DNA from: Glycomyces terrestris | Lineage (GTDB): Bacteria > Actinomycetota > Actinomycetes > Mycobacteriales > Micromonosporaceae | DNA: 64,000 nucleotides | Assembly: GCF_003933745.1 (NCBI RefSeq) | Contig: NZ_RSEB01000006.1 | Coordinates: 186,001-250,000, forward strand | Direction of reading: 5' to 3' | In this document: positions 9,980 to 64,000 of the stretch, piece by piece | How positions within the stretch are numbered: position 1 is the stretch's first letter | Layout of the letters: every line of letters starts with the position of its first letter | Notes under the pieces: model-generated | Told to the model about the DNA's origin: nothing | The model's database searches: none | What the model saw: only the letters and a program-made list of their open reading frames with translations | Translations under genes and position numbers: made by a program

Positions 9980-10084
9980 TAAACGGCTTCAGCGTTCGCT
10001 GCGCCCGCCGACGCGAACAACAAGCCCTCGAAACGAGGACGGCGCCCCCGGCTCCGCTCTCGGGCACGGACAAAGGAGTCGCAA

Positions 10085-10858
10085 GTGTCCAGCACAGACA
10101 TCATCATCGGCGAGGTCGTCGGCACGGCCCTGCTGATCCTGCTCGGCGGCGGCGTGTGCGCCGCCGTCACCCTCAAGAAGTCCAAGGCCCAGAACGCCGG
10201 CTGGCTCGCGATCACCTTCGGGTGGGGCTTCGCCGTGCTCACCGCCGCCTACGTCGCCGCCGGCGTCTCCGGCGCCCACCTCAACCCCGCGGTCACCATC
10301 GGCCTCGCCGTCACCGGCGGCACCCCCTGGGACCAGGTCCCGCTCTACATCGGCTCCCAGATGGTCGGCGCGATGCTCGGCGCCTTCCTCGTCTGGGTCG
10401 CCTACTACGGCCAGTTCCAGGCCCACATGGCCGACCTCGCCGCCCAGCCCGAGGCCGCCGAAGGCCCCGACGACGCCAAGGCCGGCCCGGTCCTCGGCAT
10501 CTTCTCCACCGGCCCCGAGGTCCGCAACGCCGCCATGAACCTCGCGACCGAGGTCATCGGCACCTTCGTCCTCCTCATCGCCATCCTCACCCAGGGCCTC
10601 AACGGCTCCGGCGAAGGACTCGGCACCCTCGGCGTCCTCATCACCGCCCTCGTCGTCGTCTCCATCGGCCTCTCCCTCGGCGGCCCCACCGGCTACGCCA
10701 TCAACCCCGCCCGCGACCTCGGCCCCCGCATCGTCCACGCCCTCCTGCCGCTCAAGCACAAGGGACGCTCCGACTGGGGCTACGCGTGGGTCCCCGTCGT
10801 CGGCCCCGTCGTCGGCGCCGTCCTCGCCGGTCTGCTCTACAACGTTGCCTTCGCCTAG
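10085..10858 (+). CDS. glpF: Glycerol uptake facilitator (aquaglyceroporin)
   Basis: MIP-family channel, 257 residues, six helices with two half-helix loops. Both NPA boxes are present: HLNPAVTIG at about residues 60-68 and [12 protein letters not shown] at about 203-214. The Asp after the second NPA (NPARD) marks the aquaglyceroporin rather than the water-only branch. It admits glycerol by facilitated diffusion for trapping by GlpK, encoded next. The loop between residues about 115 and 150 is longer and more acidic than in E. coli GlpF. Start GTG is supported by AAAGGAG seven nt upstream. First gene of glpF-glpK-glpD. Confidence 0.95.
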
Positions 10859-29367: not shown

Positions 29368-30315
29368 ATGCATCGCATCGCGGTTCTCGCCGTCCCGCCC
29401 GTCAAGGCCTTCGACCTGTCGATGCCCTCCACCCTGTTCGAGGACGCCGCCATCGAAGGGCGGCCCTGCTACGACATCACGGTCTGCACGCCCGAACCCG
29501 GCGTCATCGCGGCCTCCGGCGGCATCGGCGTCGTCGTCACCGCCGGCCTCGAGGCCCTGGACGCGGCCGACACGGTCGTCGTCCCCTCCACCGGGGCCCG
29601 CCACGATCCGCCCGAGGCGGTCCTCGACGCGCTCCGAGACGCCGCCGCCGCGGGGAAGCGGATCGCCTCCATCTGCTCCGGCGCGTTCGTCCTCGCCCGC
29701 GCCGGCCTCCTCGACGGCCGCCGCGCCACCACCCACTGGGCGCTCGCCGACGAGCTCCGCCGCGCCCGCCCCGCGGTCGAGGTCGACCCGAACGTGCTGT
29801 TCGTCGACGAGGGCCCGATCGTGACCGGCGCGGGCTCCACCGCCGGGATCGACCTGTGCCTCCACCTCATCCGCACCGACTACGGCGCGGCCGTGGCGAA
29901 CGCGGTCGCCCGCGCCGCCGTCGCCACCCCGGTGCGCCAGGGCGGCCAGGCCCAGTTCGTCGAGACGCCCCTGCCGCCCGACACCGGCTCGCCCCTCGCC
30001 GAGGCCCGCGTGTGGGCGCTCGGGCGCCTCGACCGCCCCATCTCACTCGACGACCTCGCCCGCGAGGCCCGCGTCAGCGTCCGGACCCTCGCGCGCCGCT
30101 TCACCGCCGAGACCGGCATGACCCCGTTCCAGTGGCTCCTCCAGCAGCGCCTCCACCGCGCCCGCGAGCTCCTGGAGGCCACCGACCACACGGTCGACCA
30201 GGTGGCGCGGCGCAGCGGCTTCGGCTCCGCCGAGTCGCTGCGCCAGCACTTCACCCGCCACATCGGACTGACGCCGAGCGCCTACCGGGCCTCGTTCACC
30301 CGCTCCCCGGCCTGA
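29368..30315 (+). CDS. GlxA family transcriptional regulator (DJ-1/PfpI + AraC HTH)
   Basis: A 315-residue regulator. The N-terminal DJ-1/PfpI domain (about 1-180) has the nucleophile-elbow ICSGAFVLARAGLLDGRRATTHW, with Cys near residue 112. A C-terminal AraC double HTH (about 212-312) contains LDDLAREARVSVRTLARRFTAETGMTPFQWLLQQRLHRARELLE and VARRSGFGSAESLRQHFTRHIGLTPSAYR. Such proteins usually activate divergent metabolic genes. Its 3' end overlaps the convergent ribosomal protection gene by 34 bp. Confidence 0.9.
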   Translation: MHRIAVLAVPPVKAFDLSMPSTLFEDAAIEGRPCYDITVCTPEPGVIAASGGIGVVVTAGLEALDAADTVVVPSTGARHDPPEAVLDALRDAAAAGKRIASICSGAFVLARAGLLDGRRATTHWALADELRRARPAVEVDPNVLFVDEGPIVTGAGSTAGIDLCLHLIRTDYGAAVANAVARAAVATPVRQGGQAQFVETPLPPDTGSPLAEARVWALGRLDRPISLDDLAREARVSVRTLARRFTAETGMTPFQWLLQQRLHRARELLEATDHTVDQVARRSGFGSAESLRQHFTRHIGLTPSAYRASFTRSPA

Positions 30316-32216
30316 CCGCCGCGGTGCGGCGGCGGACCGTAGACCGGGCGGTACTCGGCGAACTCGGTCGTGAACAGCGCCAGCCCCTCGGTCAGGCCCG
30401 GCAGGCTGCGCTCGACGCCGTGGACCGCCTCCGTCGGCATGAACCCCGAGACGTACCCGGTGGTCGTGGTCGAGAACTGTCCCTTGATGTTCGCGCGCGC
30501 CTCGCCCAGCCGCTTGAGGACGGCGTTCCCCGTCCCCGCCGGAAACTCCACGTGGAAGCTGTTCACCGGCTCGCACACCGCCGTGCCCGCCTCGCGGAGC
30601 ATCACGTCGAGCAGGTACTTCGTCGTGTCCCGGAAGTGCGCGGCCGTGCTCGTGCGCCCGATGTACCCGGTGGCCGTCAGCCACACCCGGCAGTCGGTGA
30701 CCGCCCAGCCGTACAGGCCCCGGCGCAGGTACTCGTACACGCCCTCCTCGACAGCGTTCCGCAGCGCCCGCGTCAGCGAGCCCCGCTCCACCTCGAGCCC
30801 GTAGTGCAGGCCCGAACCCGGCTCGCCCGGCTCCAGCCGCAGCCCCACGGTCGCGACGTTCGTCGTCTGCTGCCACGGCCCCATCTCGTGCAGCGCCGCG
30901 ACGGCGCGCAGCGGCCGCTCGACGTGGATCGCGCGCGTCTCCTCGAACTCGACGCCGATCCCGAACTCCTCGTCCAGGAGCGAGGCCACGACCTCCTTCT
31001 GGACCTCCCCGTACAGGCGCACCGCCATCTCCTCGGACAGCTCGTCCAGGTGCGGGTCCACCAGCGGGTCGCGCTCGGCCAGGCTCAGCAGCGCCCGGTT
31101 GAGCGGCACGCGGTCGTTCGGGTCGGCCGGGCGCACCACGGTCTCCAGCGTCGGCGGCGTGAACAGGCCGCCGGTCGCCAGGCCGTCAGGGGAGCCGATC
31201 GCATCCCCGATGCGGATGTCGCTGAGCCCCTTGACCTTCGCGATCGCGCCCGGTCCGGCCTCGCCCGGGACGGTGGCCGTGCCGTGGTCGAAGACCTCCA
31301 CCGCGGTCACCTTGCCCTCGTGCGCCTCGACCGCGCCGAACTCGCCGCGGCGGTACGCCGTCAGCACGTCCCGCGGCGCGATCCGGCCCGCGCTCACCCG
31401 CACGTACGCGACCTTCTGGTGGTGGTGCTCCACCTTGAACACCGTGCCGCGGGCCTCCGCGTCCGGGTCCCCTTGCGGCACCGGCAGGTAGCGGCGGATC
31501 CCCTCGGTCAGGGCCGCCACGCCCGCGCCGGTCACGGCCGACCCGAAGTACACCGGGTGCGCGGCCCCGGCCCGCACCTGCGCGGCCAGCTCGGTGTCGT
31601 AGTCGAGCGACTCCGGTCGCTCCAGGTACGCCGCGAGGAATTCGTCCGAGCCCGCCGACAGCAGGTCCGCGGCCCGGTCGGCGAACGCGCGCTCGCCGAA
31701 CCCGAACGGCACGGCCTGCGCCTCGGCCGACCCGATCGCGCGCACGGTGCCCATCGGCAGCAGCCGCGGGCTCAGCTTCTCGGCCAGGTCCTCCAGCAGG
31801 TCCGCCTCGCGGGCGCCGCGGCGGTCGATCTTGTTGACGAACAGGAGCGTCGGCACGCCAAGGCGCTCCAGGGTGCGGAACAGGACCCGCGTCTGGGCCT
31901 GCACGCCCTCGACCGCGGAGACCACCAGGACCGCGCCGTCGAGGACGCGCAGCGCGCGCTCGACCTCGGCGATGAAGTCGGTGTGGCCGGGCGTGTCGAT
32001 GAGGTTGACGGTGGTGCCGCCCAAGCGGAACGCGACGACGGCCGACTGGATCGTGATCCCGCGGCGGCGCTCCAGCTCCATCGAGTCGGTCTGCGTGCTC
32101 CCGGAGTCGACGCTCCCGACGCGGTCGATGATCCCCGCGTCGAACAGCAGCCGCTCGGTCAGGCTGGTCTTACCGGCGTCGACGTGGGCGAGAATCCCCA
32201 GATTCAGAAAAGGCAA
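30282..32216 (-). CDS. Tetracycline-resistance-type ribosomal protection protein, Otr(A)/Tet(M) family
   Basis: A 644-residue translational GTPase related to EF-G. G1 is ILAHVDAGKTSL, followed by GSTQTDSMELERRRGITI, G3 DTPGHTDF, and G4 NKID. The length, opening and C-terminal PGLTEGLALFTTEFAEYRPVYG resemble Streptomyces Otr(A), which dislodges tetracycline from the ribosome. TTG start with GAGGA six nt upstream; an out-of-frame 35-codon ORF overlaps this start (see 32170-32277). Chromosomal actinobacterial homologues may serve purposes other than drug resistance; no antibiotic gene cluster is visible here. Confidence 0.88.
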   Translation of the reverse strand: MPFLNLGILAHVDAGKTSLTERLLFDAGIIDRVGSVDSGSTQTDSMELERRRGITIQSAVVAFRLGGTTVNLIDTPGHTDFIAEVERALRVLDGAVLVVSAVEGVQAQTRVLFRTLERLGVPTLLFVNKIDRRGAREADLLEDLAEKLSPRLLPMGTVRAIGSAEAQAVPFGFGERAFADRAADLLSAGSDEFLAAYLERPESLDYDTELAAQVRAGAAHPVYFGSAVTGAGVAALTEGIRRYLPVPQGDPDAEARGTVFKVEHHHQKVAYVRVSAGRIAPRDVLTAYRRGEFGAVEAHEGKVTAVEVFDHGTATVPGEAGPGAIAKVKGLSDIRIGDAIGSPDGLATGGLFTPPTLETVVRPADPNDRVPLNRALLSLAERDPLVDPHLDELSEEMAVRLYGEVQKEVVASLLDEEFGIGVEFEETRAIHVERPLRAVAALHEMGPWQQTTNVATVGLRLEPGEPGSGLHYGLEVERGSLTRALRNAVEEGVYEYLRRGLYGWAVTDCRVWLTATGYIGRTSTAAHFRDTTKYLLDVMLREAGTAVCEPVNSFHVEFPAGTGNAVLKRLGEARANIKGQFSTTTTGYVSGFMPTEAVHGVERSLPGLTEGLALFTTEFAEYRPVYGPPPHRGGQAGERVNEAR

Positions 32217-40693: not shown

Positions 40694-40816
40694 GTCGTGT
40701 TGTCGGTCGGATCCCCGCGGCGGGACAGACTTGCCAAGGAAGCCTCCTGTTTATGAACCTTGTTGCGGAACAACAGATTCAACAGGAGGCTTCCTCAGTT
40801 CGTAAACACGACCTAG
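40690..40816. mobile_element. MITE-like element with nested hairpins, embedded in two stop codons
   Basis: CTAGGTCGTGTT at 40690-40701 and AACACGACCTAG at 40805-40816 are exact inverted repeats. Inside, AGGAAGCCTCCTGTT (40737-40751) pairs with AACAGGAGGCTTCCT (40781-40795), and TTGTT-GCGG-AACAA forms a central hairpin. Each outer CTAG contains the TAG stop of a convergent gene (40328-40693 and kce). The right end, read inward (GGTCGTGTTTACGAA), nearly equals the end of the IS5-type remnant at 40071. This suggests a non-autonomous derivative with CTAG as target duplication. It may also act as a bidirectional terminator. Confidence 0.7.
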
Positions 40817-41652
40817 TCGGCGTCGCGCATCCGCAGCAGCTTGCGCGCCTCCACGGTCGTGATCGCCGGGCGCTGCGCCAGCGCCGCGGCCGCCGCCGCG
40901 CGGGCGACCAGCTGGTCGTTGCCCGTCACGGCCTGGCGCCGCGCGAACGACACCGTGTCCTCCATGCCCACGCGCAGGTGCCCGCCGTGGGCGAGCGCGG
41001 CGAACATGACCGGCAGCGTGGTGCGCCCGATCCCGGTGGCGGAGAACGTGGTCCCCTCCGGCAGGTAGCGGCGGACCCCTTCGGCGAACGCCGTCACCGT
41101 CGAGGCGTCCCCCGCGGCCCCGCCGGGCACGCCGAGCACGAAGTCGACGTGCACGTGCTCGCCGAACGGCAGCCCGTGCCGGTCGAGCAGGCGCTCCAGC
41201 GCCGCGAGGTGCCCGAGGTCGAACAGCTCGTACTCGGGCACGACCGCGAGCTCCCGCATCCGCTCGTGCAGGCGGACCACGAACTCCCAGCGGTTGGTGA
41301 ACACGTCGTCGCCGAAGTTCACCGTGCCCATCGTGCAGGAGGCCATGTCCGGTTCGGCGTCGAGGACCGCGAGGCGGGCCTCCTCGCCGTCGCGGACCGA
41401 ACCGCCCGTGGAGAGCTGCACGATCAGGTCCGTGGCGTCCTTGAGGGCCGCGACGGCGTCGCGCAGCCGCACCGGGTCCAGCGTCGGCTTCGCGTCGTCG
41501 TCGCGCAGGTGCACGTGGATGATCGACGCGCCCGCCCGCTCGCACGCCACGGCCGCGGCGACCAGCTCGTCGAGCGTCACCGGCAGGGCCGGGACCTCGG
41601 CCTTGTCGACCTCGGCCCCGGTGGGCGCCACCGTGATCAGGGTTCCGGTCAT
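40813..41652 (-). CDS. kce: 3-keto-5-aminohexanoate cleavage enzyme (BKACE family)
   Basis: A 279-residue TIM-barrel beta-keto-acid cleavage enzyme. HVHLRDDDAKPTLDP (about 47-61) provides the metal-binding His pair; STGGS, YELFDLGHLAALERLL, GEHVHVDFVLGVPGG and FSATGIGR follow, with VGMEDT near the C-terminus. In lysine fermentation Kce condenses 5-amino-3-oxohexanoate with acetyl-CoA and cleaves it to acetoacetate plus 3-aminobutyryl-CoA. BKACE members differ in substrate, but the coupling here to kamA (4-bp ATGA overlap) and the divergent kdd-kamDE-kal operon makes this role convincing. Its stop lies in the MITE-like element. Confidence 0.93.
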   Translation of the reverse strand: MTGTLITVAPTGAEVDKAEVPALPVTLDELVAAAVACERAGASIIHVHLRDDDAKPTLDPVRLRDAVAALKDATDLIVQLSTGGSVRDGEEARLAVLDAEPDMASCTMGTVNFGDDVFTNRWEFVVRLHERMRELAVVPEYELFDLGHLAALERLLDRHGLPFGEHVHVDFVLGVPGGAAGDASTVTAFAEGVRRYLPEGTTFSATGIGRTTLPVMFAALAHGGHLRVGMEDTVSFARRQAVTGNDQLVARAAAAAALAQRPAITTVEARKLLRMRDAD

Positions 41653-43127
41653 ACGAGGTCCGCGGCCTCGTGCTGGGCCGCCGAGGCCCGCCGGGACCGG
41701 ACCGCCGCGGCGTCCCCGGCCTCCTTGACCTCCCTGGGGGCGTGCATGTTCGCCCACCACTGCTGGCCGGCCTTCGGCAGCGTGTCGATCGGGTCGTAGA
41801 ACGGGTAGCGGCGGGTGAGCGCGTCGGGGTCGTCGGCCTCGATCGAGGTCCGGTAGTTCTTCGTCCAGTACGAGATGCCCAGCTCCCGGTCGTACTCGGA
41901 GAGCTGGTGCACCCAGCGCTTGCCGACCATCGGCACGTCGCAGATGATCCGCGGCGTCGCGTACCCGGGCAGGTAGCCCATGATCGCGGTCTGGAGCTCC
42001 TGCGCCTGCGCGACCGAGGTCCGCCAGTGCTCGGCGTTGGGGATCATGTCGCACATGTAGAAGTAGTACGGCAGGATGTTCGCCTCGCCCTGGAGCGCGA
42101 AGCACAGGTCGAGCAGGTCGGCCTGGGTGTCGTTGACGCCGCGCATGAGCACGCCCTGGTTGCGCACGTCGCGCACGCCCGCGTCGAGCATCGCCGCCGC
42201 GGCCCGCGCCACCGCCGGGGTCACCGAGTTGACGTGGTTGACGTGGGTGTGGATCGCGAGGTTCACGCCCTGCCCGGCCGCGCGCTTCGCGACCCGAGCC
42301 ATGCCGTCGACGACCTCCTCCTGGAGCCAGTGCTGCGGCAGCCCCATGAGCGCCTTGGTCGCCAGGCGGATATCGCGGATGGTCTCGACGTCCAGGAGCC
42401 GGTCGAGGAACGCCTCCAGCTGCTTCCACGGCAGGTTCGCCACGTCGCCGCCGGAGACGACCACGTCCCGCACGCCCGGGTGGGCCCGGAGGTAGTCGAG
42501 GATCGCCGTCTGCCGGTCGACGGGCTTGAGCGACAGCCGCCGCTTGTCCACGGTGGGGGTGGAGTTGCCGACCAGGTCCATGCGGGTGCAGTGCCCGCAG
42601 TACTGCGGGCAGGTCGACAGGAGCTCGGCGAGGACCTTCGTGGGGTAGCGGTGGGTCAGGCCCTCGACCGCCCACATGTCGTGCTCGTGCAGCGAGTCGC
42701 GCGCCGCGAAGGGGTGGGAAGGCCAGTCGGTGCGCCGGTCGGAGGCGACGGGGAGCATGTAGCGGCGCACGGGGTCGGCGTAGAACGCGTCCGTCCACGA
42801 GCCCGCGCCGGTCTCCTCGACCGCCGGGACCATCGTGTTGAGCATCTGCGGCGGCAGCAGCATCGACATCGTCGCGCTCTGCGCGATGTCGGCCTCCAGA
42901 TCCTCGTAGAAGGACTCGTGGAGCCGGTCGCCGAGCACGGCCCGCAGCTGCTTCACGTTCTTCACGCAGTGCACGCGCTGCCACTGCGCCGAGGCCCAGT
43001 CGGCCTCGGTCACGCCGGCCCAGCCGGGGAACCGGGTCCAGTCCGGCTCGACCAGCTCGCGCCGCCGGTACTGGTACGGCTGCTCGATCATCTTGGGCAT
43101 TGTCGCCTCGAATGGTCGATCGGCCAC
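41649..43127 (-). CDS. kamA: Lysine 2,3-aminomutase
   Basis: A 492-residue radical-SAM, PLP-dependent enzyme. The cluster motif STCPQYCGHCTR gives C173, C177 and C180 (CxxxCxxC), with GGDVANLPW and the conserved N-terminal MIEQPYQYRRREL. It converts L-lysine to L-beta-lysine, the first step of the pathway encoded around it. A GTG at 43127 is chosen as start because GGAGG lies 7 nt upstream; an internal ATG (MPKM) ten codons later is possible. It is cotranscribed with kce. The C-terminal about 25 residues are Ala-rich. Alternative roles in beta-lysine-containing natural products exist, but kce and kamDE argue for catabolism. Confidence 0.95.
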   Translation of the reverse strand: MADRPFEATMPKMIEQPYQYRRRELVEPDWTRFPGWAGVTEADWASAQWQRVHCVKNVKQLRAVLGDRLHESFYEDLEADIAQSATMSMLLPPQMLNTMVPAVEETGAGSWTDAFYADPVRRYMLPVASDRRTDWPSHPFAARDSLHEHDMWAVEGLTHRYPTKVLAELLSTCPQYCGHCTRMDLVGNSTPTVDKRRLSLKPVDRQTAILDYLRAHPGVRDVVVSGGDVANLPWKQLEAFLDRLLDVETIRDIRLATKALMGLPQHWLQEEVVDGMARVAKRAAGQGVNLAIHTHVNHVNSVTPAVARAAAAMLDAGVRDVRNQGVLMRGVNDTQADLLDLCFALQGEANILPYYFYMCDMIPNAEHWRTSVAQAQELQTAIMGYLPGYATPRIICDVPMVGKRWVHQLSEYDRELGISYWTKNYRTSIEADDPDALTRRYPFYDPIDTLPKAGQQWWANMHAPREVKEAGDAAAVRSRRASAAQHEAADLV

Positions 43128-43189
43128 GTTCTCACCTCCATGTCCGGGATGTTCGGCCCGGGGAAACGTCGCGGCGGGGGTAGACCGCC

Positions 43190-43218
43190 TTGTGACGAGG
43201 ATAACCTTCCGTTACAGT
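43190..43218 (+). promoter_or_regulatory. Promoter of the kdd-kamDE-kal operon
   Basis: TTGTGA (43190-43195), 17-bp spacer, TACAGT (43213-43218), 62 bp before the kdd ATG, in the 153-bp gap shared with the divergent kamA-kce operon. No clear ribosome site precedes kdd beyond AGAAGGG. Confidence 0.5.
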
Positions 43219-43280
43219 TGCTCGCTAGGTCTCGCATATTGAGATTCGATCAACTCCGTATCACCAGAAGGGCGGCAACG

Positions 43281-44330
43281 ATGTCGACAGGCTCACCCGT
43301 CGGATCGCACCGAGTCGTCAGCCCCGCCGGGTCCCTGCCACAAGCGGCCGACCGGCTCGACCCCGACCCCGAGATCGCCGACGACGAGGTCCGCGTCAGC
43401 GTCGAGCGCCTCAACCTCGACGCGGCCTCCTACCGGCAGCTCCACACCAAGCACGGCGGCGACGGCGACGCCATCCGCGCCGAGGTCCTCGCGATCGTCG
43501 CCGAGCGCGGCAAGATGCAGAACCCCGTCACCGGCTCCGGCGGCATGCTCATCGGCACCGTCGACGCCGTCGGCCCCCGCTCGCCGCTCGGCCTCAAACC
43601 CGGCCAGAAGATCGCCACCCTCGTCTCCCTCACCCTCACCCCGCTGCGCATCACCGACCGGTTGGAGCGCTGGGACGGCAGGTCCGAGCAGGTCCCCGCA
43701 GCCGGTACCGCCATCCTCTTCGGCCGTTCCATCGCCGCCCCGATCCCCGACGACATGCCCGAAGCCCTCGCGCTCGCCGTCTTCGACGTGTGCGGCGCCC
43801 CCGCCCTCGTCCGCCGCGTCGTCTCCCGCCGCTCCCACTCGGGCCCCACGGTCGCGGTCCTCGGCGCCGCCGGCAAGTCCGGCTCCCTCTCCCTCGCCGC
43901 CGCCAAGGACGCCCGCGCCGCCAAGGTCGTCGCCGTCGTCCGCGACCAGATCGAGGCCGCTCAGATGCGCCGCCTCGGACTCGCCGACGAGATCGCCGTC
44001 GCCGACGCCACCGACCCGCTCCAGCTCTCCCGCGCGGTGAACGAGGCCCTCGGCGGCCGCGGCGCCGACGTCACCGTCGTCTGCGTCGACGTCCCCGGCT
44101 GCGAGCACGGCGCCATCCTCGCCACCGCGACCGGCGGCACCGTCGTGTTCTTCTCCATGGCCACCTCCTTCCCGCAGGCCGCCCTCGGCGCCGAAGGGCT
44201 CGCCGCCGACGTCGAGATGCTCATCGGCAACGGCTACGTCCCCGGCCACGCCGACTACGCCCTCCACCTCATGAACGCCCGCCCGCGCCTCAAAGAGCTG
44301 TTCACCGCCCGCGTCGGAAAGCAGGACTGA
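43281..44330 (+). CDS. kdd: L-erythro-3,5-diaminohexanoate dehydrogenase
   Basis: A 349-residue MDR-like NAD(P) enzyme. The N-terminal substrate domain contains NLDAASYRQLHTKHGGD and GKMQNPVTGSGGMLIGTVDAVG. The nucleotide fold begins TVAVLGAAGKSGSLSLAAAKDARAAKVVAVV (about 194-224), followed by VCVDVPGCEHGAIL. It oxidatively deaminates 3,5-diaminohexanoate to 5-amino-3-oxohexanoate plus ammonia with NAD+. It is first of the plus-strand operon, with the kamD ATG one base beyond its stop. N-terminal sequence and length agree with the clostridial and Cloacimonas enzymes as I know them. Confidence 0.94.
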   Translation: MSTGSPVGSHRVVSPAGSLPQAADRLDPDPEIADDEVRVSVERLNLDAASYRQLHTKHGGDGDAIRAEVLAIVAERGKMQNPVTGSGGMLIGTVDAVGPRSPLGLKPGQKIATLVSLTLTPLRITDRLERWDGRSEQVPAAGTAILFGRSIAAPIPDDMPEALALAVFDVCGAPALVRRVVSRRSHSGPTVAVLGAAGKSGSLSLAAAKDARAAKVVAVVRDQIEAAQMRRLGLADEIAVADATDPLQLSRAVNEALGGRGADVTVVCVDVPGCEHGAILATATGGTVVFFSMATSFPQAALGAEGLAADVEMLIGNGYVPGHADYALHLMNARPRLKELFTARVGKQD

Positions 44331-44331
44331 C

Positions 44332-45918
44332 ATGACCGGACCGCTCCTGCCGCTCGACGCCGGACTCGTCGCCCGGGCCCGCGCGCTCGCCGCCGAGGCC
44401 GCCCAGCCCGTCGTGGACCTCGCCCGCAGCCACACCACCGTCTCCGTCGAACGCGCCACCCTCCGCCTCGCCGGCCTCACCGGCGCCGACCCCGACGGCA
44501 TCCCCTGGGTCAACCGCCTCGCCGACGCCGTCCAAGCGCAGGTCGGCATCGAGCACGGCATCGCCCTGCCGGTCTTCCACGCGCTCAAGGACTTCCCCGA
44601 CCTCGAACGCCTCGCCCACGCCGCCGCCGCGGGCGGCGTCCGCTTCGCGCTCCCGGACGGCCGCGCCGCGCGAGCGGCCCGCGACCGCGCGAGCAGCGCC
44701 GTCGGCGCCGGCTTCGACCGCATCGACGCCTCCCGCGCCACCCGCTCGCAGCTCGTCGCCGAGATCGGCGACCCGCCCCAGCGCCCCTGGATCTACCTCA
44801 TCGTCGCCACCGGCGACATCTACGAGGACATCCCGCAGGCCCAGGCCGCCGCGAAGGCCGGCGCCGACGTCATCGCCGTCATCCGCTCCACCGGGCAGTC
44901 CCTCCTGGACTACGTCCCCGAAGGCGCCACCCGCGAGGGCTTCGCCGGCACCTACGCCACCGGCGAGAACTTCCGGCTCATGCGCGCCGCCCTGGACGAG
45001 ACCTCCCGCGAGGTCGGCCGCTACATCCGCCTCACCAACTACGCGTCCGGGCTCTGCATGCCCGAGATCGCCGCGCTCGCCGGCATGAACCGGCTCGACA
45101 TGATGCTCAACGACTCCATGTACGGCATCCTGTTCCGCGACATCAACCCCATCCGCACCTTCGTGGACCAGCGCTTCAGCCGCCAGGTCCACGCCCGCGC
45201 CGGCATCATCATCAACACCGGCGAGGACAACTACCTCACCACCGCGGACGCGGTCGAGGCCGCGCACACCGTCACCGTCTCCCAGCTGCTCAACGAGCGC
45301 TTCGCCCACGAGGCCGGGCTCCCCGACGAACTGCTCGGCCTCGGGCACGCCTTCGAGATCAACCCCGAAGTGCCCGAGTCGTTCCGGCTCGAACTCGCGC
45401 ACGCGCTCCTGGCCCGCCAGCTGTTCCCCGACGCGCCGCTCAAGTGGATGCCGCCGACCAAGCACATGACCGGCGACGTGTTCCGCGGCAACCTCCTCGA
45501 CGGCTTCTTCAACCTCGCCGGGGTCATGACCGGGCAGTCGATCCTCCTGGTGGGCATGATGACCGAAGCGGTCGTCACCCCGTGGCTCTCCGACCGCGAC
45601 ATCGCCCTCCAGAACGTCCGCTACGTCCTCAGCGCCTGCGCCGGCCTCGCCGAGGACTTCCACCCGCCCGCCGACGGCTTCATCGCCACGCGCGCGAACC
45701 ACGTCCTCGGCGAAGCGGTCGACCTCCTCGAACGCATCCGCGACGACGGCCTCCTCAACGCCATCGCCGACGGCACCTTCGGCATCATGAAGCGCCCCGC
45801 CGACGGCGGCCGCGGCCTCGACGGCGTCGCGAAGCGCGCCGACGACTACTGGAACCCGGCCGTCGCGATCCTCGACCAAGGAAGCACCGCCCCGATCCCG
45901 GACGGAGACCCCGCATGA
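44332..45918 (+). CDS. kamD: Lysine 5,6-aminomutase alpha subunit
   Basis: A 528-residue PLP/adenosylcobalamin TIM-barrel subunit. Signatures: RSHTTVSVERATLRLAGL, TGDIYEDIPQAQAAAKAGADVIAVIRSTGQSLLDYVPEG, TNYASGLCMPEIAALAG, INPIRTFVDQRFSRQVHARAGIIINTGEDNYLTT, and KWMPPTKHMTGD. With KamE it moves the terminal amino group of L-beta-lysine (or D-lysine) from C6 to C5. Its stop overlaps the kamE start (ATGA). Confidence 0.96.
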   Translation: MTGPLLPLDAGLVARARALAAEAAQPVVDLARSHTTVSVERATLRLAGLTGADPDGIPWVNRLADAVQAQVGIEHGIALPVFHALKDFPDLERLAHAAAAGGVRFALPDGRAARAARDRASSAVGAGFDRIDASRATRSQLVAEIGDPPQRPWIYLIVATGDIYEDIPQAQAAAKAGADVIAVIRSTGQSLLDYVPEGATREGFAGTYATGENFRLMRAALDETSREVGRYIRLTNYASGLCMPEIAALAGMNRLDMMLNDSMYGILFRDINPIRTFVDQRFSRQVHARAGIIINTGEDNYLTTADAVEAAHTVTVSQLLNERFAHEAGLPDELLGLGHAFEINPEVPESFRLELAHALLARQLFPDAPLKWMPPTKHMTGDVFRGNLLDGFFNLAGVMTGQSILLVGMMTEAVVTPWLSDRDIALQNVRYVLSACAGLAEDFHPPADGFIATRANHVLGEAVDLLERIRDDGLLNAIADGTFGIMKRPADGGRGLDGVAKRADDYWNPAVAILDQGSTAPIPDGDPA

Positions 45919-46661
45919 GCCGCATCGTCCGCCCCTACGGCGACACCACCGGCGACGGCATGGTGCAGCTGTCCTTCACCCTGCCCGTCCCGCACGACAA
46001 GCGCGCCGAGGGCGCCGCCCTCCAGCTCGCCGCCAAGATGGGCATCGACGGCGCGATGCTCGTGCACGCCAAGCCCATCGGCGAGTCCTACACGTTCTTC
46101 GTCGTCTACGGCGCCAGCACCCACCTCGTCAACCTCGACGAGGTCCAGGTCGTCGAGCGCGACTATCCGCACCTGAGCCCCAAGGAGGTCAACGACGCCG
46201 TCCGCGAGAAGCTCGGCCGCAAGCTCACCGTCGTCGGCGCCTGCATCGGGACCGACGCCCACACCGTCGGCATCGACGCGATCCTCAACATCAAGGGCGT
46301 CGCGGGGGAGAAGGGCCTGGAGTACTACCGCGAACTGCGCGTGGTCAACCTCGGCGCCCAGGTCGCCGTCCCCGACCTCGTCAACCGCGCCGTGGACGAA
46401 GGCGCCGACGCCGTCCTCGTCAGCCAGGTCGTGACCCAGAAGGACGCCCACCTCCACAACACCCGCGAGATGTCGGCCGCGTTCCGCGAGGCGCTCCCGC
46501 CCGGCAAGCGCCCGCTCCTGGTCGTCGGCGGCCCCCGCTTCGACGAGTCCGCCGCCGCCGACCTCGGCGTCGACCGGATCTTCAGCCGCGGCACCATGCC
46601 CTCCGACGTCGCCTCCTACCTCGTCCACCGCCTCGTCTTCACCAACCGGGAGACCGCATGA
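45915..46661 (+). CDS. kamE: Lysine 5,6-aminomutase beta subunit, B12- and PLP-binding
   Basis: A 248-residue subunit. A base-off cobalamin motif DAHTVG supplies His116 as lower axial ligand, and Lys127 in LNIKG is the residue that holds PLP; the 11-residue spacing equals that of the clostridial enzyme (His133/Lys144). The N-terminal dimerisation domain (MVQLSFTLPVPHDKRAEGAALQLAAKMGI) and the Rossmann B12 domain (ADAVLVSQVVTQKDAHLHN, GGPRFDES, GVDRIFSRGTMPSDVASYLVHRL) are intact. It overlaps kamD and kal by 4 bp each. Confidence 0.96.
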   Translation: MSRIVRPYGDTTGDGMVQLSFTLPVPHDKRAEGAALQLAAKMGIDGAMLVHAKPIGESYTFFVVYGASTHLVNLDEVQVVERDYPHLSPKEVNDAVREKLGRKLTVVGACIGTDAHTVGIDAILNIKGVAGEKGLEYYRELRVVNLGAQVAVPDLVNRAVDEGADAVLVSQVVTQKDAHLHNTREMSAAFREALPPGKRPLLVVGGPRFDESAAADLGVDRIFSRGTMPSDVASYLVHRLVFTNRETA

Positions 46662-47038
46662 CCGACCACAACGGCGCCACGGTGACCCACCGCCGCTACA
46701 TCCCCTACTCGCACGCCCACTACGGCGGGAACCTCGTCGACGGCGCCTACGGGCTCGGCCTCTTCGGCGACGTCGCCACCGAGCTGTGCATCCTCACCGA
46801 CGGCGACGAGGGCCTCTTCGCCTCCTACTCAGACGTCCAGTTCAAGGCCCCCGTCCGGGCCGGCGACGTCGTCGAGGCCACCGCGGTCGTCGTCCGCACC
46901 GGCACCCGCTCCCGCACCGTCGAGTTCACCCTCACCGTCGTCTGCCGCGCCGAGCCCGAGCGCGGCGACTCGGCCGCCCGGGTCCTCGCCGAGCCCATCG
47001 TCGCCACCACGGCGACCGGCACCGTCGTGGTCCCGTGA
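46658..47038 (+). CDS. kal: 3-aminobutyryl-CoA ammonia-lyase
   Basis: A 126-residue hot-dog-fold enzyme. RRYIPYSHAHYGGNLVDGAYGLGLFGDVATELCILTDGDEGLFASYSDVQFKAPVRAGD carries the family pattern. It eliminates ammonia from L-3-aminobutyryl-CoA to give crotonyl-CoA, the exit point of this pathway into butyrate or beta-oxidation metabolism. Start overlaps the kamE stop (ATGA) and its stop overlaps the GTG of the next gene (GTGA). Confidence 0.93.
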   Translation: MTDHNGATVTHRRYIPYSHAHYGGNLVDGAYGLGLFGDVATELCILTDGDEGLFASYSDVQFKAPVRAGDVVEATAVVVRTGTRSRTVEFTLTVVCRAEPERGDSAARVLAEPIVATTATGTVVVP

Positions 47039-48363
47039 CCGACGTGATCGTCTGCGTCGACGTCGGCTCCACCTACACCAAGGCTGCCGCCGTCGACGCG
47101 GACACCGGCGCGCTCGCCGGCGCCGCCTCGCACCCGACCACGCTCGGCACCGACGTCATGGACGGCCTCCGGGCCGCCGTCGACGCCGCCCTCCCCAAGG
47201 GCGCCAAAGCGATCGACACGCTCGTCTGCTCCTCCGCGGGCGGCGGCCTGCGCCTCGCCGTCATCGGCAACGAGCCCCTGGTCACCGCGCGCGCCGCCTA
47301 CCGGGCCGGCCTGAGCGCCGGCGCCCGCGTGGTCGACGTGCGCGCCGGGACCCTCGCCGCCGGCGACTTCGCGGCCCTCGCCGCCGCCCGGCCCGACGTG
47401 ATCCTCCTGGCCGGCGGCACCGACGGCGGCGACGAGACCGTCCTGCGCGCCCACGCCGCCGGCCTCGCCGCCTCCGGCCTCCGCACCCCGGTCGTCCTGG
47501 CGGGCAACGCGCGCGCCAGCGCCGACGTGACCGCCGTCCTGGAGTCCGCCGGCGTCCCGGTCACCGCCGTCGGGAACGTCCTCCCGCGCATCGGCGCCCT
47601 CGACCCCCTCCCGGCCCGCACCGCGCTCCGCGAGGTCTTCCTGCGCCACGTCATCGCCGGCAAGCACCTCTCCGCCAGCGCCGACTTCACCCGCATGGTC
47701 AAGGCCGCCACCCCCGACGCCGTCCTGACCGGCGTGGAACTGCTCGCCGAGCGCACCGGCGACCTCCTCGTGGTCGACGTCGGCGGCGCCACCACCGACG
47801 TCTACTCCGTCCTCACCCCCGACGCCGAACTCCAGGGCCCGCGCGCCGAGGTCGCCGGGACCGCCTGGCGCTCAAGGACCGTCGAAGGCGACCTCGGCGT
47901 CCGACACACCGCCGTCGGCATCGCCGAGGCCGCCGCCGACGAGGACCTGGCCGCCGACCCGGACCTGCCCGAGGCCGCCCGCCGCCGCGCCGCCGACCCC
48001 GCCTTCCGGGCCGGCGACGACCGCGAACGCGCCCTCGACCGGGAGCTGAGCGCGCTCGCCGCCCGCATCGCCGTCCGCCGCCACGCCCGCGGCGAGCGCA
48101 TCGGCGGCCCCACCGAACCGCTGCGCGGCGGCAAGGACCTCGCCGCCGTCGGCACCGTCGTCGGCTCCGGCGGCGTCCTGCGCCGCGACCCCGGGGCCGC
48201 CGACTGGCTGCGCGAGGCCGTCGGCGCCGACACCTCCGGCGGCGTGCGGCCGCCGAAGGACGCCCGCTTCACCGTCGACGCCGACTACCGCCTCGCCCCC
48301 GCCGGGCTCCTCGCCGCCGCCGGCCGCGGCGACCTGGCCGCGCGCCTGCTCGCCGACCTGTAG
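47035..48363 (+). CDS. MutL-like ATPase, probable aminomutase reactivase
   Basis: A 442-residue actin/HSP70-fold ATPase of the glutamate mutase MutL family. CVDVGSTYTKAAAVD (about 7-21) is phosphate-1, VVDVGGATTDVYSV (about 244-257) is phosphate-2, and VGSGGVLRRDPGA lies near the end. These proteins sit beside B12-dependent amino-acid mutases and are thought to exchange damaged cofactor. Being last in the operon and overlapping kal, it most likely serves KamDE. The residue stretch 290-360 is Ala/Asp/Arg-rich and low in complexity. A second, MutS-like, partner gene is not present in the window. Confidence 0.85.
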   Translation: MTDVIVCVDVGSTYTKAAAVDADTGALAGAASHPTTLGTDVMDGLRAAVDAALPKGAKAIDTLVCSSAGGGLRLAVIGNEPLVTARAAYRAGLSAGARVVDVRAGTLAAGDFAALAAARPDVILLAGGTDGGDETVLRAHAAGLAASGLRTPVVLAGNARASADVTAVLESAGVPVTAVGNVLPRIGALDPLPARTALREVFLRHVIAGKHLSASADFTRMVKAATPDAVLTGVELLAERTGDLLVVDVGGATTDVYSVLTPDAELQGPRAEVAGTAWRSRTVEGDLGVRHTAVGIAEAAADEDLAADPDLPEAARRRAADPAFRAGDDRERALDRELSALAARIAVRRHARGERIGGPTEPLRGGKDLAAVGTVVGSGGVLRRDPGAADWLREAVGADTSGGVRPPKDARFTVDADYRLAPAGLLAAAGRGDLAARLLADL

Positions 48364-55997: not shown

Positions 55998-57239
55998 ATG
56001 GAATCCTGGACCGCACCGCACGTACCCGCCCTGCCCGGCCACGGCCCCGCCCTGCGCCTGCACGACACCGCGACCGCGGGCCCGCGCGAGACGGTCGCCC
56101 CCGACGCCGAGCGCGCCACCATGTACGTGTGCGGCATCACCCCCTACGACGCGACGCACCTGGGCCACGCGGCCACCATGATCACGTTCGACCTCGTGCA
56201 CCGCTACTGGCTCGACCAGGGCATCGACGTGCACTACGCGCAGAACGTGACCGACGTCGACGAGCCGCTGTTCGAGCGCGCCGAGCGCGACGGCACCGAC
56301 TGGCAGGTCCTCGGCCTGCGCGAGACCGCCCTCTACCGCGAGGACATGGAGGCCCTCCAGGTCCTCCCGCCCCGCCACTACATCGGCGCGGTCGAGTCCA
56401 TCCCGTCCGTCGGCAAGGCCGTCGCCCAGCTGCTGGAACAGGGCGCCGCCTACCGGCACGAGTCCGGCGACGTCTACTACGCCGTCGCGGCCGACCCGTT
56501 CTTCGGCGCCGAGTCGAACTACGACCGCGCCACGATGCTCTCCTACGCCCGCGAGCGCGGCGGCGACCCCGACCGCGAGGGCAAGCGCGACCCGCTCGAC
56601 CCGATCCTGTGGAACGCCCCGCGCGAGGGCGAGCCGTCCTGGGACACCGAGGCCGGCCCCGGCCGCCCCGGCTGGCACATCGAGTGCGCCTGCATCGCCC
56701 TGGACTACCTCGGCGAGCAGATCGACGTCCAGGGCGGCGGCTCCGACCTGATCTACCCCCACCACGAGATGTCGGCCGCGCACGCCCAGTCCCTGACCGG
56801 CAAGCGGCCCTTCGCGAACGCGTACGTGCACACCGGCATGATCGGCCTCGACGGCGAGAAGATGTCGAAGTCCCTCGGGAACCTCGTGTTCGTCTCCAAG
56901 CTCCGCGCCGAGGGCGTCGACCCCTCCGCGGTGCGCCTGGCCCTCATGGCCCAGCACTACCGGTCCGACCGGCAGTGGAGCGCCGCCGTCCTCGCCGAGG
57001 CCGAACTGCGCCTGGGCCGCTGGCGCGAGGCCGCCTCCCGCGAGCTCGCCGTCCCCGCCGGGTCGGTCCTGACGGCCGTCCGCGAGCGCCTCGCCGACGA
57101 TCTCGACACCCCCGGCGCACTCTCCGTGATCGACGCCTGGGCCGAGGAGACCCTTGCCGCAGGTGGCGAGGACCCTTCGGCTCCGGCCCTCGCCCGCGAC
57201 ACGATCGGAGGATTGCTCGGCATAGACTGCACGCGCTGA
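55998..57239 (+). CDS. mshC: Cysteine--1-D-myo-inosityl 2-amino-2-deoxy-alpha-D-glucopyranoside ligase
   Basis: A 413-residue cysteinyl-tRNA-synthetase-like enzyme. [24 protein letters not shown] contains the zinc Cys and the HIGH-like [18 protein letters not shown] and [19 protein letters not shown] follow, and KMSKSLGN is the KMSKS loop. It ligates cysteine to GlcN-Ins in mycothiol synthesis, an actinobacterial hallmark. A TAGGAT -10 lies 7 nt before the ATG (leaderless). It is followed by a separate promoter for the hoxX homologue. Confidence 0.96.
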
Positions 57240-59014: not shown

Positions 59015-59908
59015 ATGTTCGAAGAAGGACAGTACTTCGCGCCGGTCAACACCGACGCCGACGGCACGGTCGTCGTGGAGCTGGGTGAGACCCACCCGGG
59101 CTTCGCGGACGCCGAATACCGCGAACGGCGCAACGCCATCGCGGCACTCGCATTGGACTGGAGGCCCGGCCTACCCATGCCGACGGTCGACTACACCGAT
59201 GCCGAGCACGAGATATGGCGGCTGGTCAGTGCGGAACTGGCCGTCAAGCACCAGGCCCTGGCCGCACACGACTACCTCGACGGTGCCGAGCGCCTCAAGC
59301 TCCCCGCCGACCACATCCCGCAGCTCCACGAGGTCTCCGAGCTGCTGGAGCCCCTGACCGGGTTCAGCTACCTGCCCGCGGCGGGGCTGGTGCCGCTGCG
59401 CGACTTCTACGGCGTGCTCGCCGACGGGAAGTTCCACGCGACCCAGTACATCCGCCACCACTCGGTGCCGCTGTACACGCCGGAGCCGGACGTGATCCAC
59501 GAGGTCATCGGCCACGCCAACGCCCTCGCCGCGCCCCGCTTCGCCGCCCTGTACCGCGCCGCCGGGGACGCGGCCCGCCGCGTGCACTCCGAGGACGCGC
59601 TCGAGTTCGTCTCCCGCGTCTTCTGGTTCACCCTCGAGTTCGGGGTGATCAGCGAGCCGGACGGCCTCAAGGCGTACGGCGCGGGCATCCTCTCCTCGTA
59701 CGGGGAGATCGACGAGTTCCGGGACATGACGATCCTGCCGCTCGACCTGGTCACCATGGGCACCATCGACTACGACATCACGCACTACCAGGACAAGCTG
59801 TTCGACGCGGGGTCGATGGACCGGCTGGAGGACGTCGTCGGCGAGTTCTGGGAGACGTGCGACGACGACATGATCGAGCGGCTCAAGGCGGACGCGAAGG
59901 CCGCCTAG
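59015..59908 (+). CDS. phhA: Phenylalanine 4-monooxygenase
   Basis: A 297-residue aromatic amino acid hydroxylase, single domain as in other bacteria. The iron ligands are H162 and H167 in VIHEVIGHANAL and E208 in FWFTLEFG; LTGFSYLPAAGLVPLRDFY and ATQYIRHHSVPLYTPEPD precede them. It converts phenylalanine to tyrosine with O2 and a reduced pterin, which implies aerobic metabolism. TTGACA at 58980 with a weak TGGACT -10 precedes it. Its TAG shares CTAG with the convergent PPOX gene. Confidence 0.94.
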   Translation: MFEEGQYFAPVNTDADGTVVVELGETHPGFADAEYRERRNAIAALALDWRPGLPMPTVDYTDAEHEIWRLVSAELAVKHQALAAHDYLDGAERLKLPADHIPQLHEVSELLEPLTGFSYLPAAGLVPLRDFYGVLADGKFHATQYIRHHSVPLYTPEPDVIHEVIGHANALAAPRFAALYRAAGDAARRVHSEDALEFVSRVFWFTLEFGVISEPDGLKAYGAGILSSYGEIDEFRDMTILPLDLVTMGTIDYDITHYQDKLFDAGSMDRLEDVVGEFWETCDDDMIERLKADAKAA

Positions 59909-60723: not shown

Positions 60724-63700
60724 GTGTCTGAGCAGAGCATCTTCCTCGAAACCCTGAAGCGCCGCGTCGTCATCGCCGACGGGGGCATGGGCACGATGCT
60801 CCAGACCTTCGACCCGACGATGGAGGACTACGACGGCCACGAGGGCCTCTCCGACATCCTGTGCCTGACCAGGCCCGACATCGTCCTCGGCATCCACGAC
60901 GCCTACCTCGCGGCCGGCGCCGAGTGCGTCGAGACCAACAGCTTCAACGCCAACTACGGCGGCCTGGTCGAATACGGCCTCGAAGCCCGCGCCCGCGAGC
61001 TCGCCCGCGCGGCCGCCTCCCTCGCCCGCCGCAAGGCCGACGAGTACGCCACCCCCGAATGGCCCCGCTTCGTCCTCGGCTCCATGGGCGGCGGCACCCG
61101 CCTGCCCACCCTCGGCCACGCCCCGTTCGCGCTCCTGCGCGACCACTACGAGGAGTGCTCCGCCGGCCTCATCGAAGGCGGCGCCGACGCCCTCCTGGTC
61201 GAGACCGCCCAGGACCTCCTCCAGGCCAAGGCCGCCGTCATCGGCGCCAAGCGCGCCAACGCCGCCCTCGGCACCAGCGTCCCGATCATCGCCCAGGTCA
61301 CCGTCGAGACCACCGGCACCATGCTCGTCGGCGGCGAGATCGGCGCCGCCCTCACCAGCCTCGCCGCCCTCGGCATCGACCTCATCGGCCTCAACTGCGC
61401 CACCGGGCCCGACGAGATGAGCGAGTCCATCCGCTACCTCTCCCGGCACTCGCCCGTGCCCATCTCGGTCATGCCGAACGCCGGCCTGCCCGTCCTCGGC
61501 CCGAACGGCGCCGTCTACCCGCTCACCCCCGAGGAGCTCGCCGACGCCCACGAGGAGTTCGTCAAGAACTTCGGCGTCAACCTCGTCGGCGGCTGCTGCG
61601 GCACCACCCCCGACCACATCCGCGCCGTCCGCGAGCGCCTCGGCGGCGCCGACCTCATCGCCCCCAGGGAGCGCACCCCCGTCCTCGAAGCGGGCGCCTC
61701 CTCCTCGTACCACCACGTCCCCTACCGCCAGGACGCCTCCATCCTCAACGTCGGCGAGCGCACCAACGCCAACGGCTCCAAGGCCTTCCGCGACGCCATG
61801 CTCGCCGCCGACTACGACCGCTGCGTCGAGATCGCCCGCGAGCAGGCCGGCGGCGGCTCCCACCTCCTCGACCTCTGCGTCGACTACGTCGGCCGCGACG
61901 GCGCCGAGGACATGAAGGTCCTCGCCTCCCGCTTCGCCACCGCCTCCACCCTCCCGATCATGCTCGACTCCACCGAGCCGAACGTGGTCGAAGCCGGCCT
62001 CGAGGCCCTCGGCGGCAAGTGCATCGTCAACTCCGTCAACTTCGAGGACGGCGACGGCCCGAACTCCCGCTACCAGCGCATGATGCCCCTCGTCGCCGAG
62101 CACGGCGCCGGCGTCGTCGCCCTCTGCATCGACGAGGAGGGCCAGGCCCGCGACCGCGAATGGAAAGTGGGAGTCGCCGCCCGCCTCATCGACGACCTCA
62201 CCGGCACCTGGGGCATGCGCATCGAGGACATCTTCGTCGACGCCCTCACCTTCCCCATCTCCACCGGCCAGGAGGAGACCCGCCGCGACGGGCTCGAGAC
62301 CATCGAGGCCATCCGCGAGATCGCCCGCCGCTACCCCGGCGTCAACTTCACCCTCGGCATCTCCAACATCTCCTTCGGCCTCAACCCCGCCGCCCGCCAG
62401 GTCCTCAACTCCGTGTTCCTCAACGAATGCGTCGAAGCGGGCCTGACCAGCGCCATCGTCCACGCCTCCAAGATCCTGCCCATGGCCTCCATCCCCAAGG
62501 AACAGCAGCAGGTCGCCCTCGACATGGTCTACGACCGCCGCACTGCGGACTACGACCCGCTCCAGCGCCTCATCGAGATCTTCGACGGCGTCAGCCTCGC
62601 CGGCTCCAAGGAGGCCCGCGCCGAAGCCCTCGCCGCCCTCCCGCTCGGCGAGCGCCTCGCCCAGCGCATCATCGACGGCGACAAGAACGGCATGGACACC
62701 GACCTCGACGAGGCCCTCGCCGAAGGCAGGCGCCCGCTCGACATCATCAACGACCACCTCCTCGAAGGCATGAAGGTCGTCGGCGACCGCTTCGGCTCCG
62801 GCCAGATGCAGCTCCCGTTCGTCCTCCAGTCCGCCGAGGCCATGAAGTTCGCCGTCGCCCACCTCGAACCCCACATGGACAAGGCCGACTCCACCGACAA
62901 GGGCACCATCGTCCTCGCCACCGTCCGCGGCGACGTCCACGACATCGGCAAGAACCTCGTCGACATCATCCTGTCCAACAACGGCTACACCGTCGTCAAC
63001 CTCGGCATCAAGCAGCCCATCAACGCCATCCTCGACGCCGCCGAGGAGCACCGGGCCGACGTCATCGGCATGAGCGGCCTCCTCGTCAAGTCCACGGTCA
63101 TCATGAAGGACAACCTCGCCGAGATGATGGCCCGCTCGATGCACACGCGCTGGCCGGTCCTCCTCGGCGGCGCCGCGCTCACCCGCGCCTACGTCGAGGA
63201 CGACCTGCGCGAGATGTTCGAAGGCGGCGAAGTCCACTACGCGCGCGACGCGTTCGAGGGCCTCGACCTCATGAACAAGGTCATGACCGCCCGCCGCACC
63301 GGCGTCCCCATCGTCGACGCGGAGAAGGAGGCGAAGATCGCCCTGCGCCGCGAACGCCGCGCCAAGCAGGCCACGCTCGTCGCCGACACCCTCCCCGACC
63401 TCGACGACACCTCGGTGCGCTCCGACGTCGCCACCGACGTCGAGATCCCCGTCCCGCCCTTCTACGGCTCCCGCGTCGTCAAGGGCGTCCAGACCTCCGA
63501 GTACGCCGCCCTGCTCGACGAGCGCGCCACCTTCCTCGGCCAGTGGGGCCTCAAGCCGACCCGCGGCGACGACGGCCCCTCCTACGAGGAGCTCGTCGAG
63601 ACCGAGGGCCGCCCCCGCCTGCGCTACTGGCTCGACCGCCTCGCCACCGACAACGTCATCGAGGCGAAGGTCGCCTACGCGTACTTCCCGGCCTACGCCG

Positions 63701-64000
63701 AAGGCAACACCCTCGTCGTCCTCGACGAGAACGGCCACGCCGAACGCGCCCGCTTCACCTTCCCGCGCCAGCGCCAAGGCCGGCGCCTGTGCCTCGCGGA
63801 CTTCTTCCGCGCCAAGGACGGCGAGCAGCTCGACGTCCTCGGCATGCAGCTGGTCACCCTCGGCTCCAAGGTCTCCGAGTACACCAACGAGCTGTTCCAG
63901 GCCAACGCCTACCGCGACTACCTCGAAGTGCACGGCCTCACCGTGCAGCTCACCGAGTCCCTCGCCGAGTACTGGCACCGCCGCATGCGCCGCGAATGGG
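60724..64000 (+). CDS. metH: Cobalamin-dependent methionine synthase, 3' end outside window
   Basis: The first 1,092 residues of MetH. The homocysteine domain begins VVIADGGMGTMLQ, with zinc cysteines C225 (LNCATG) and C291/C292 (GGCCGT). The pterin domain has ILNVGERTNANGSKAFRDAM. The cobalamin domain has GDVHDIGKN, with axial His739, and the start of the reactivation domain (about 905 onward) has YGSRVVKGVQ and EYWHRRMRREW at the window edge. About 50-130 residues are missing. It makes methionine from homocysteine using methyl-THF. GTG start, 7 nt after TACCCT (leaderless). No room or consensus for a cobalamin riboswitch was seen upstream. Confidence 0.97.
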   Translation, partial: MSEQSIFLETLKRRVVIADGGMGTMLQTFDPTMEDYDGHEGLSDILCLTRPDIVLGIHDAYLAAGAECVETNSFNANYGGLVEYGLEARARELARAAASLARRKADEYATPEWPRFVLGSMGGGTRLPTLGHAPFALLRDHYEECSAGLIEGGADALLVETAQDLLQAKAAVIGAKRANAALGTSVPIIAQVTVETTGTMLVGGEIGAALTSLAALGIDLIGLNCATGPDEMSESIRYLSRHSPVPISVMPNAGLPVLGPNGAVYPLTPEELADAHEEFVKNFGVNLVGGCCGTTPDHIRAVRERLGGADLIAPRERTPVLEAGASSSYHHVPYRQDASILNVGERTNANGSKAFRDAMLAADYDRCVEIAREQAGGGSHLLDLCVDYVGRDGAEDMKVLASRFATASTLPIMLDSTEPNVVEAGLEALGGKCIVNSVNFEDGDGPNSRYQRMMPLVAEHGAGVVALCIDEEGQARDREWKVGVAARLIDDLTGTWGMRIEDIFVDALTFPISTGQEETRRDGLETIEAIREIARRYPGVNFTLGISNISFGLNPAARQVLNSVFLNECVEAGLTSAIVHASKILPMASIPKEQQQVALDMVYDRRTADYDPLQRLIEIFDGVSLAGSKEARAEALAALPLGERLAQRIIDGDKNGMDTDLDEALAEGRRPLDIINDHLLEGMKVVGDRFGSGQMQLPFVLQSAEAMKFAVAHLEPHMDKADSTDKGTIVLATVRGDVHDIGKNLVDIILSNNGYTVVNLGIKQPINAILDAAEEHRADVIGMSGLLVKSTVIMKDNLAEMMARSMHTRWPVLLGGAALTRAYVEDDLREMFEGGEVHYARDAFEGLDLMNKVMTARRTGVPIVDAEKEAKIALRRERRAKQATLVADTLPDLDDTSVRSDVATDVEIPVPPFYGSRVVKGVQTSEYAALLDERATFLGQWGLKPTRGDDGPSYEELVETEGRPRLRYWLDRLATDNVIEAKVAYAYFPAYAEGNTLVVLDENGHAERARFTFPRQRQGRRLCLADFFRAKDGEQLDVLGMQLVTLGSKVSEYTNELFQANAYRDYLEVHGLTVQLTESLAEYWHRRMRREW

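Follow-up and report, generated by a model that had tools for sequence, protein, structure and literature searches.

Seven genes at positions 40813-48363 of the 64,000-nucleotide stretch of Glycomyces terrestris DNA analysed here (contig NZ_RSEB01000006.1, positions 186,001 to 250,000; the window) probably form a lysine-degradation module of actinomycetes living in air. Judged by sequence, the predicted set of enzymes is complete, and breakdown of lysine to acetoacetate and crotonyl-coenzyme A (crotonyl-CoA) appears to be its best reading, presumably with operation under oxic conditions. The set is not peculiar to this genome; it is a recurring lysine breakdown module among its relatives, and the surprise lies in the breadth of the module, in its divergent lysine 2,3-aminomutase-like protein (KamA) and in its tie to an acylase-type gene more than in this genome itself.

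The minus strand carries kce (40813-41652) and kamA (41649-43100, or from an upstream start at 43127), which overlap. Across a shared divergent promoter region (43101-43280), kamA faces the plus-strand genes kdd (43281-44330), kamD (44332-45918), kamE (45915-46661) and kal (46658-47038), which are followed by a GlmL/MutL-type gene (47035-48363). Four of the six enzymes score above the curated NCBIfam cut-offs, namely KamD (NF052384, 683 bits with a cut-off of 600), KamE (NF052385, 347 and 280), the L-erythro-3,5-diaminohexanoate dehydrogenase KDD (NF052381, 260 and 200) and the 3-aminobutyryl-CoA ammonia lyase KAL (NF052388, 194 and 160), while KamA and KCE remain below theirs, although both retain catalytic residues. 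The nearest solved proteins are 5,6-aminomutase subunits for KamD (1xrs_A, E 7.9e-161) and KamE (9q1a_A, E 4.2e-66), 3,5-diaminohexanoate dehydrogenase for KDD (7dl3, E 9e-69), beta-alanyl-CoA ammonia lyase for KAL (4mtu, E 9.5e-19), Kce for KCE (2y7d, E 5.5e-59) and lysine 2,3-aminomutase for KamA (2a5h, its only PDB sequence match, E 7.1e-41). KamE has the DxHxxG motif with H116 and, 11 residues further on, K127, and both are kept in all 81 aligned sequences. A preliminary description of this DNA had listed the six genes kamA, kce, kdd, kamD, kamE and kal, found here at 40813-47038, together with the KamE residues and their spacing, all of which is borne out exactly; its radical S-adenosylmethionine (SAM) cysteines C173/C177/C180 of KamA are correct when counted from 43127 and become C164/C168/C171 from 43100. 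Its end coordinate of 48363 took in the GlmL-type gene, which it left unnamed. That protein (PF13941, 425 bits; TIGR01319, 243 bits with a cut-off of 204) is probably a reactivation chaperone for the 5,6-aminomutase.

In the proposed pathway, KamA would convert L-lysine to L-beta-lysine, from which KamDE, using adenosylcobalamin and pyridoxal 5'-phosphate (PLP), would produce 3,5-diaminohexanoate. KDD would then form 3-keto-5-aminohexanoate with nicotinamide adenine dinucleotide, KCE would combine this product with acetyl-CoA to give acetoacetate and 3-aminobutyryl-CoA, and KAL would split the latter into ammonia and crotonyl-CoA, which could enter beta-oxidation. The GlmL-type protein would reactivate KamDE, and an amidohydrolase encoded in the operon of most relatives would bring N-epsilon-acyl-lysine as well as free lysine into the module.

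KamA relatives were sought among one genome per species (84,980 species), and at least 582 stretches encode one; the named loci are the best 80 of these and are biased towards close relatives. The four genes kdd, kamD, kamE and kal are all present in 67 of the best 80 KamA loci. They are accompanied by the amidohydrolase gene in 55 loci, by kce with the amidohydrolase gene absent in nine loci, and stand alone in three. Ten further loci have KamA and the amidohydrolase only, one (L066) has KamA alone, and in two the contig ends and cuts the locus short on that side, with kdd and the amidohydrolase gene present in L080 and kdd in L097. Of these 80 loci, 56 were found to carry the GlmL-type gene. 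The nine loci with kce are the nearest ones (84-95% KamA identity), consisting of eight Glycomyces records and one actinomycete metagenome-assembled genome, hereafter the Glycomyces group, and all nine have the gene set of the locus described here. Counting the window, kamA and kdd are arranged head to head in 74 of the 81 loci with both genes, whereas in the other seven, which belong to more distant genomes, they lie on one strand.

The gap between kamA and kdd measures 153 bp from the 43127 start, as originally described, and 180 bp from the 43100 start. Within it lies a block at 43189-43215 with the palindrome TAAC-N5-GTTA at 43202-43214, and the window and the nine nearest loci agree at 26 of its 27 positions. 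Because these loci share the gene set and keep this 27-base block, the locus is conserved beyond chance. The block is a candidate operator, and the module may be inducible. No regulator gene was recognised adjoining the operon among the scanned window neighbours. In another sample of 13 regions, 12 of them from genomes without a KamD match, kamA has an Lrp/AsnC-type gene in its vicinity in five (one was scanned, the rest belong to the same BLAST cluster). No cobalamin riboswitch or other Rfam RNA was detected in the window at gathering score, nor was a tRNA found there as a mark of insertion.

The divergence of KamA and KCE from their curated models speaks against the degradation reading. KamA misses both the AblA equivalog TIGR03820 (168 bits with a cut-off of 525) and the wider subfamily TIGR00238 (163 and 199), it is only 27% identical to the classical KamA of locus L032, and its PLP-lysine loop (DVPxVGK) has one residue fewer than the DAPGGGGK of the latter. 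These features might be expected if the divergent KamA acted on another amino acid, an explanation that is nevertheless highly improbable. Among the models tried, the lysine enzyme still scores best, ahead of those for glutamate and arginine (121 bits each), and in an alignment of 104 KamA sequences the cysteine triad, R173, D351 and D388 are present in every one and K394 in 103, the sole exception being a one-column shift in the classical KamA of L032. We take R173, D351 and D388 to be the equivalents of the substrate contacts R134, D293 and D330, with K337 as the PLP lysine. The neighbouring genes would moreover degrade beta-lysine, the product expected of a lysine 2,3-aminomutase. A predicted structure of the window KamA (mean pLDDT, the predicted local distance difference test, of 64, which is moderate) has as its top Foldseek match the Clostridium subterminale SB4 lysine 2,3-aminomutase 2a5h (E 1.4e-15, template modelling score 0.52 by query), and this model supports the fold only; in comparison with that enzyme the window KamA is about a quarter identical, longer, and different in the loop described above.

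KCE is likewise below its curated cut-off (NF052387, 267 bits with a cut-off of 382), although this is still its best model and it aligns along its length with 2y7d, the structure of Kce. Among the best 80 KamA loci, kce stands beside kamA in the nine loci of the Glycomyces group alone; it was not found in 13 kam regions taken from other genomes, and in two relatives it adjoins ygfZ. A kce match is nonetheless present in 15 of 15 genomes with kamD (KamD being only partial, at a contig end, in one of them, G213), with identities of 44-100% in 13 and of 34 and 39% in G187 and G034, respectively. By comparison, in a non-random set of 23 genomes without kamD (ten of the type with KamA and amidohydrolase and 13 from the listed genomes with no match), seven have a match at 1e-10 (best identity 38%; three of the seven span only some 110 residues), and the other 16 have none. 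The tie between kce and kamD across genomes indicates that the unlinked gene tracks the pathway. The idea that KCE and the amidohydrolase replace each other, which came from the 13 kce-free regions, was rejected, as all 15 kamD genomes match both genes.

Further observations against the degradation module come from genomes in which KamA occurs without KamD. In an even sample of 396 genomes of the phylum, including that of G. terrestris, the KamD model matches 21 genomes, 15 of them above cut-off (three others, near 145 bits, resemble ornithine aminomutase), and the divergent KamA clade is present in 45, of which 11 have a KamD match and 34 do not. Restriction to the 24 KamA genomes with a completeness of 90% or more and a contamination of 5% or less leaves 11 with a KamD match and 13 with none, and neither kamD nor kdd was found in the ten named genomes with KamA plus amidohydrolase, in searches whose positive controls worked. 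KamA therefore cannot everywhere serve this pathway alone. It could be argued from these genomes that KamA makes beta-lysine for biosynthesis, of a natural product or an osmolyte, and that the remainder of the locus is secondary. Region L193 points the same way, having a KamA-clade gene (8719-10107) beside an adenylation-type ligase and, about 1.6 kb further on, a gene for a 2149-residue protein together with another, truncated gene from its BLAST cluster. This explanation is quite unlikely for the locus studied here, where kamA overlaps kce and faces kdd-kamD-kamE-kal, and where the scanned neighbours at 30282-51603 include no biosynthetic cluster. The osmolyte route through AblAB to N-epsilon-acetyl-beta-lysine was rejected, since the beta-lysine acetyltransferase AblB was found in none of 13 genomes, including that of G. 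terrestris and the ten genomes with KamA and amidohydrolase, while 5 of 14 controls were positive.

Some of the regions with KamA but without the other enzymes deserve description in their own right. The neighbourhood in L193 may be a cluster for a natural product containing beta-lysine. In family f15, six regions with KamA only (L189-L192, L194, L200) have neighbours in common, among them a transketolase, GGDEF/EAL proteins and phosphoesterases, with a carbon-nitrogen hydrolase in three; these neighbour families are BLAST clusters with one member each scanned, and no beta-lysine enzyme was recognised in the regions. In three genomes of family f50 (L195-L197), a UPF0047/YjbQ-type protein is encoded directly after kamA (one cluster member scanned).

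The amidohydrolase of the relatives may be, as we propose with moderate confidence, an epsilon-lysine acylase that feeds KamA. It belongs to PF07969 in the three proteins scanned, and all 55 named loci that have the three genes show it between kdd and kamD in the same orientation. For SgELA, the available portions of PMC10699109 report the metal ligands H76, H78, H330, H365 and D431 together with H177 as an oxyanion-hole residue, place SmELA among YtcJ-like amidohydrolases and give identities of 75.6-79.8% for SgELA compared with three further enzymes from Streptomyces, and an excerpt of PMC11511702 gives a mass of 56.9 kDa. The Streptomyces-like protein of L139 has all six residues at the numbers published in those portions and a mass of 57.1 kDa, and its identity to four further proteins from its genus is 75-79%, near the range given there. 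Fourteen actinomycete amidohydrolases (13 kam- or kamA-linked ones and the copy of G. terrestris itself) are 47-59% identical to the L139 protein, and five from genomes of families f9 and f50 are 34-37% identical to it. The five metal ligands (H, H, H, H, D) are conserved, each position considered, in 89 to 91 of 91 aligned amidohydrolases, and this likeness to published epsilon-lysine acylases suggests that the module may take N-epsilon-acyl-lysine besides lysine.

Several facts speak against such a role. When the published SgELA numbering is applied directly, seven of eight orthologues fail to match it, probably due to a differing length of the N-terminus, and the column of H177 contains histidine in only five of 91 sequences, though it is present at 177 in L139. 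The full loci L098, L105 and L131 have no amidohydrolase nearby, and conversely the gene is present in 11 of 11 tested genomes without kamD. In addition, lnt adjoins it in three of eight kamD-free loci checked (L141, L142, L144), and 32 of the 55 full loci include lnt within their stretch. In G. terrestris the gene is located away from the operon (G000:C10:776757-778232), between an amino-acid ATP-binding cassette (ABC) transporter and lnt; the binding protein of this transporter is nearest to the Lys/Arg/Orn type, at 166 bits with a cut-off of 256, so that its substrate is open. The association with lnt and the occurrence in kamD-free genomes imply that part of the amidohydrolase position may be inherited, and the gene might then have been carried along in an ancient block with lnt and have no part in lysine breakdown. 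We regard this as rather unlikely. The gene is placed between kdd and kamD in all 55 loci with the three genes, no lnt was found in the stretches of 23 of the 55 loci (for instance L071, L074, L121 and L123; some stretches are cut by contig ends), and in other families the amidohydrolase gene is directly behind kamA (L199) or within about 7 kb of it (L195-L197). It also belongs to the same family as the epsilon-lysine acylases, which release the substrate of KamA. As a variation of the arrangement, three genes encoding 400, 689 and 813 amino acids stand between the amidohydrolase gene and kdd in genome G085 (L201, 1749-7472).

A broader reading is possible, if doubtful, in which the epsilon-lysine acylase and the divergent KamA form a two-enzyme core of actinobacteria that makes beta-lysine from N-epsilon-acyl-lysine under air, for example in the turnover of acetylated proteins. 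The B12 cassette kdd-kamDE-kal, with its unlinked kce, would then be an optional finish, and beta-lysine would have another fate in Amycolatopsis, Saccharomonospora and many KamD-free lines.

With regard to the degradation module that we favour, the question arises whether the pathway is instead fermentative and confined to oxygen-poor conditions, as in clostridia. Its six enzymes are the ones used for fermenting lysine, and the cysteine triad of KamA belongs to an oxygen-sensitive type of cluster. However, the hosts include aerobic genera such as Glycomyces, Micromonospora and Amycolatopsis, and enzymes dependent on radical SAM or adenosylcobalamin also occur outside anaerobes. Furthermore, CoA_trans (PF01144) was not found in the G. 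terrestris genome (99.46% complete), although four of four relatives have it. The clostridial AtoAD exit to butyrate therefore seems to be missing in G. terrestris, which fits an oxidative fate; the activation of acetoacetate was sought by PF01144 only. A strictly fermentative pathway is accordingly an unlikely explanation. As for other routes, lysine 6-aminotransferase scored above cut-off in none of 12 genomes, but also in none of 14 controls, so that its absence is unproven.

The preliminary description had proposed an oxic or microoxic route into beta-oxidation rather than fermentation, and the complete enzyme set and the missing CoA_trans agree with this, with oxic operation itself remaining a presumption. 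Its supporting observations of glpD (12482-14113) and phhA (59015-59908) in the window stand; a ligase of the MshC/cysteinyl-tRNA synthetase family is also present (55998-57239) and may serve the mycothiol synthesis that the description had mentioned. Its view that the pathway is surprising in this genome does not hold, since the set is found in many actinomycetes of aerobic genera, and it overlooked the divergence of KamA, the location of kce elsewhere in relatives outside the Glycomyces group, and the acylase-like gene. A B12-dependent methionine synthase gene at 60724-63999, which runs off the end of the window, suggests that the organism probably uses cobalamin.

Compared with lysine fermentation in anaerobes (KamA, KamDE, Kdd, Kce and Kal or Kat, with a variant in PMC3149608, as far as its available text goes), the same six enzymes would act here in the same chemical order. 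The differences are the divergent KamA clade, the divergent KCE with a kce gene that is unlinked in the examined relatives outside the Glycomyces group, the CoA transferase not found in the G. terrestris genome, the acylase-like gene that 55 of the 80 loci have in their operon, and the aerobic hosts. The Streptomyces enzymes SmELA, ScELA, SamELA and SgELA (EC 3.5.1.17; excerpts of PMC10699109 and PMC11511702) have the five metal ligands in common with the kam-linked amidohydrolases, whereas the five compared versions from families f9 and f50 are only 34-37% identical to the L139 protein. The available passages of PMC3149608, PMC2667541 and PMC5133246 make no mention of the kam pathway in aerobic actinomycetes, and among the open-licence papers listed no title or opening of an abstract describes it, which is no proof that it is unpublished.

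Elsewhere in the window, two Asp-Al_Ex antiporter genes flank a 539-residue protein gene of the class I/II aminotransferase fold (2886-7920), a layout that presumably represents an aspartate-alanine exchanger with aspartate 4-decarboxylase. A ribosomal-protection GTPase at 30282-32216 is nearest to Otr(A), with 699 bits and thus below the cut-off of 900. The PF16552 profile had no match anywhere and was uninformative.

If this interpretation is correct, a pathway of anaerobic fermentation would be a recurring route of lysine breakdown in aerobic actinomycetes, and it would provide a physiological setting for the epsilon-lysine acylases used in industry as well as KamA and KamDE enzymes from air-living hosts to study. 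The KamA genomes without KamD raise the concrete question of what purpose beta-lysine serves in them, which is the most interesting loose end.

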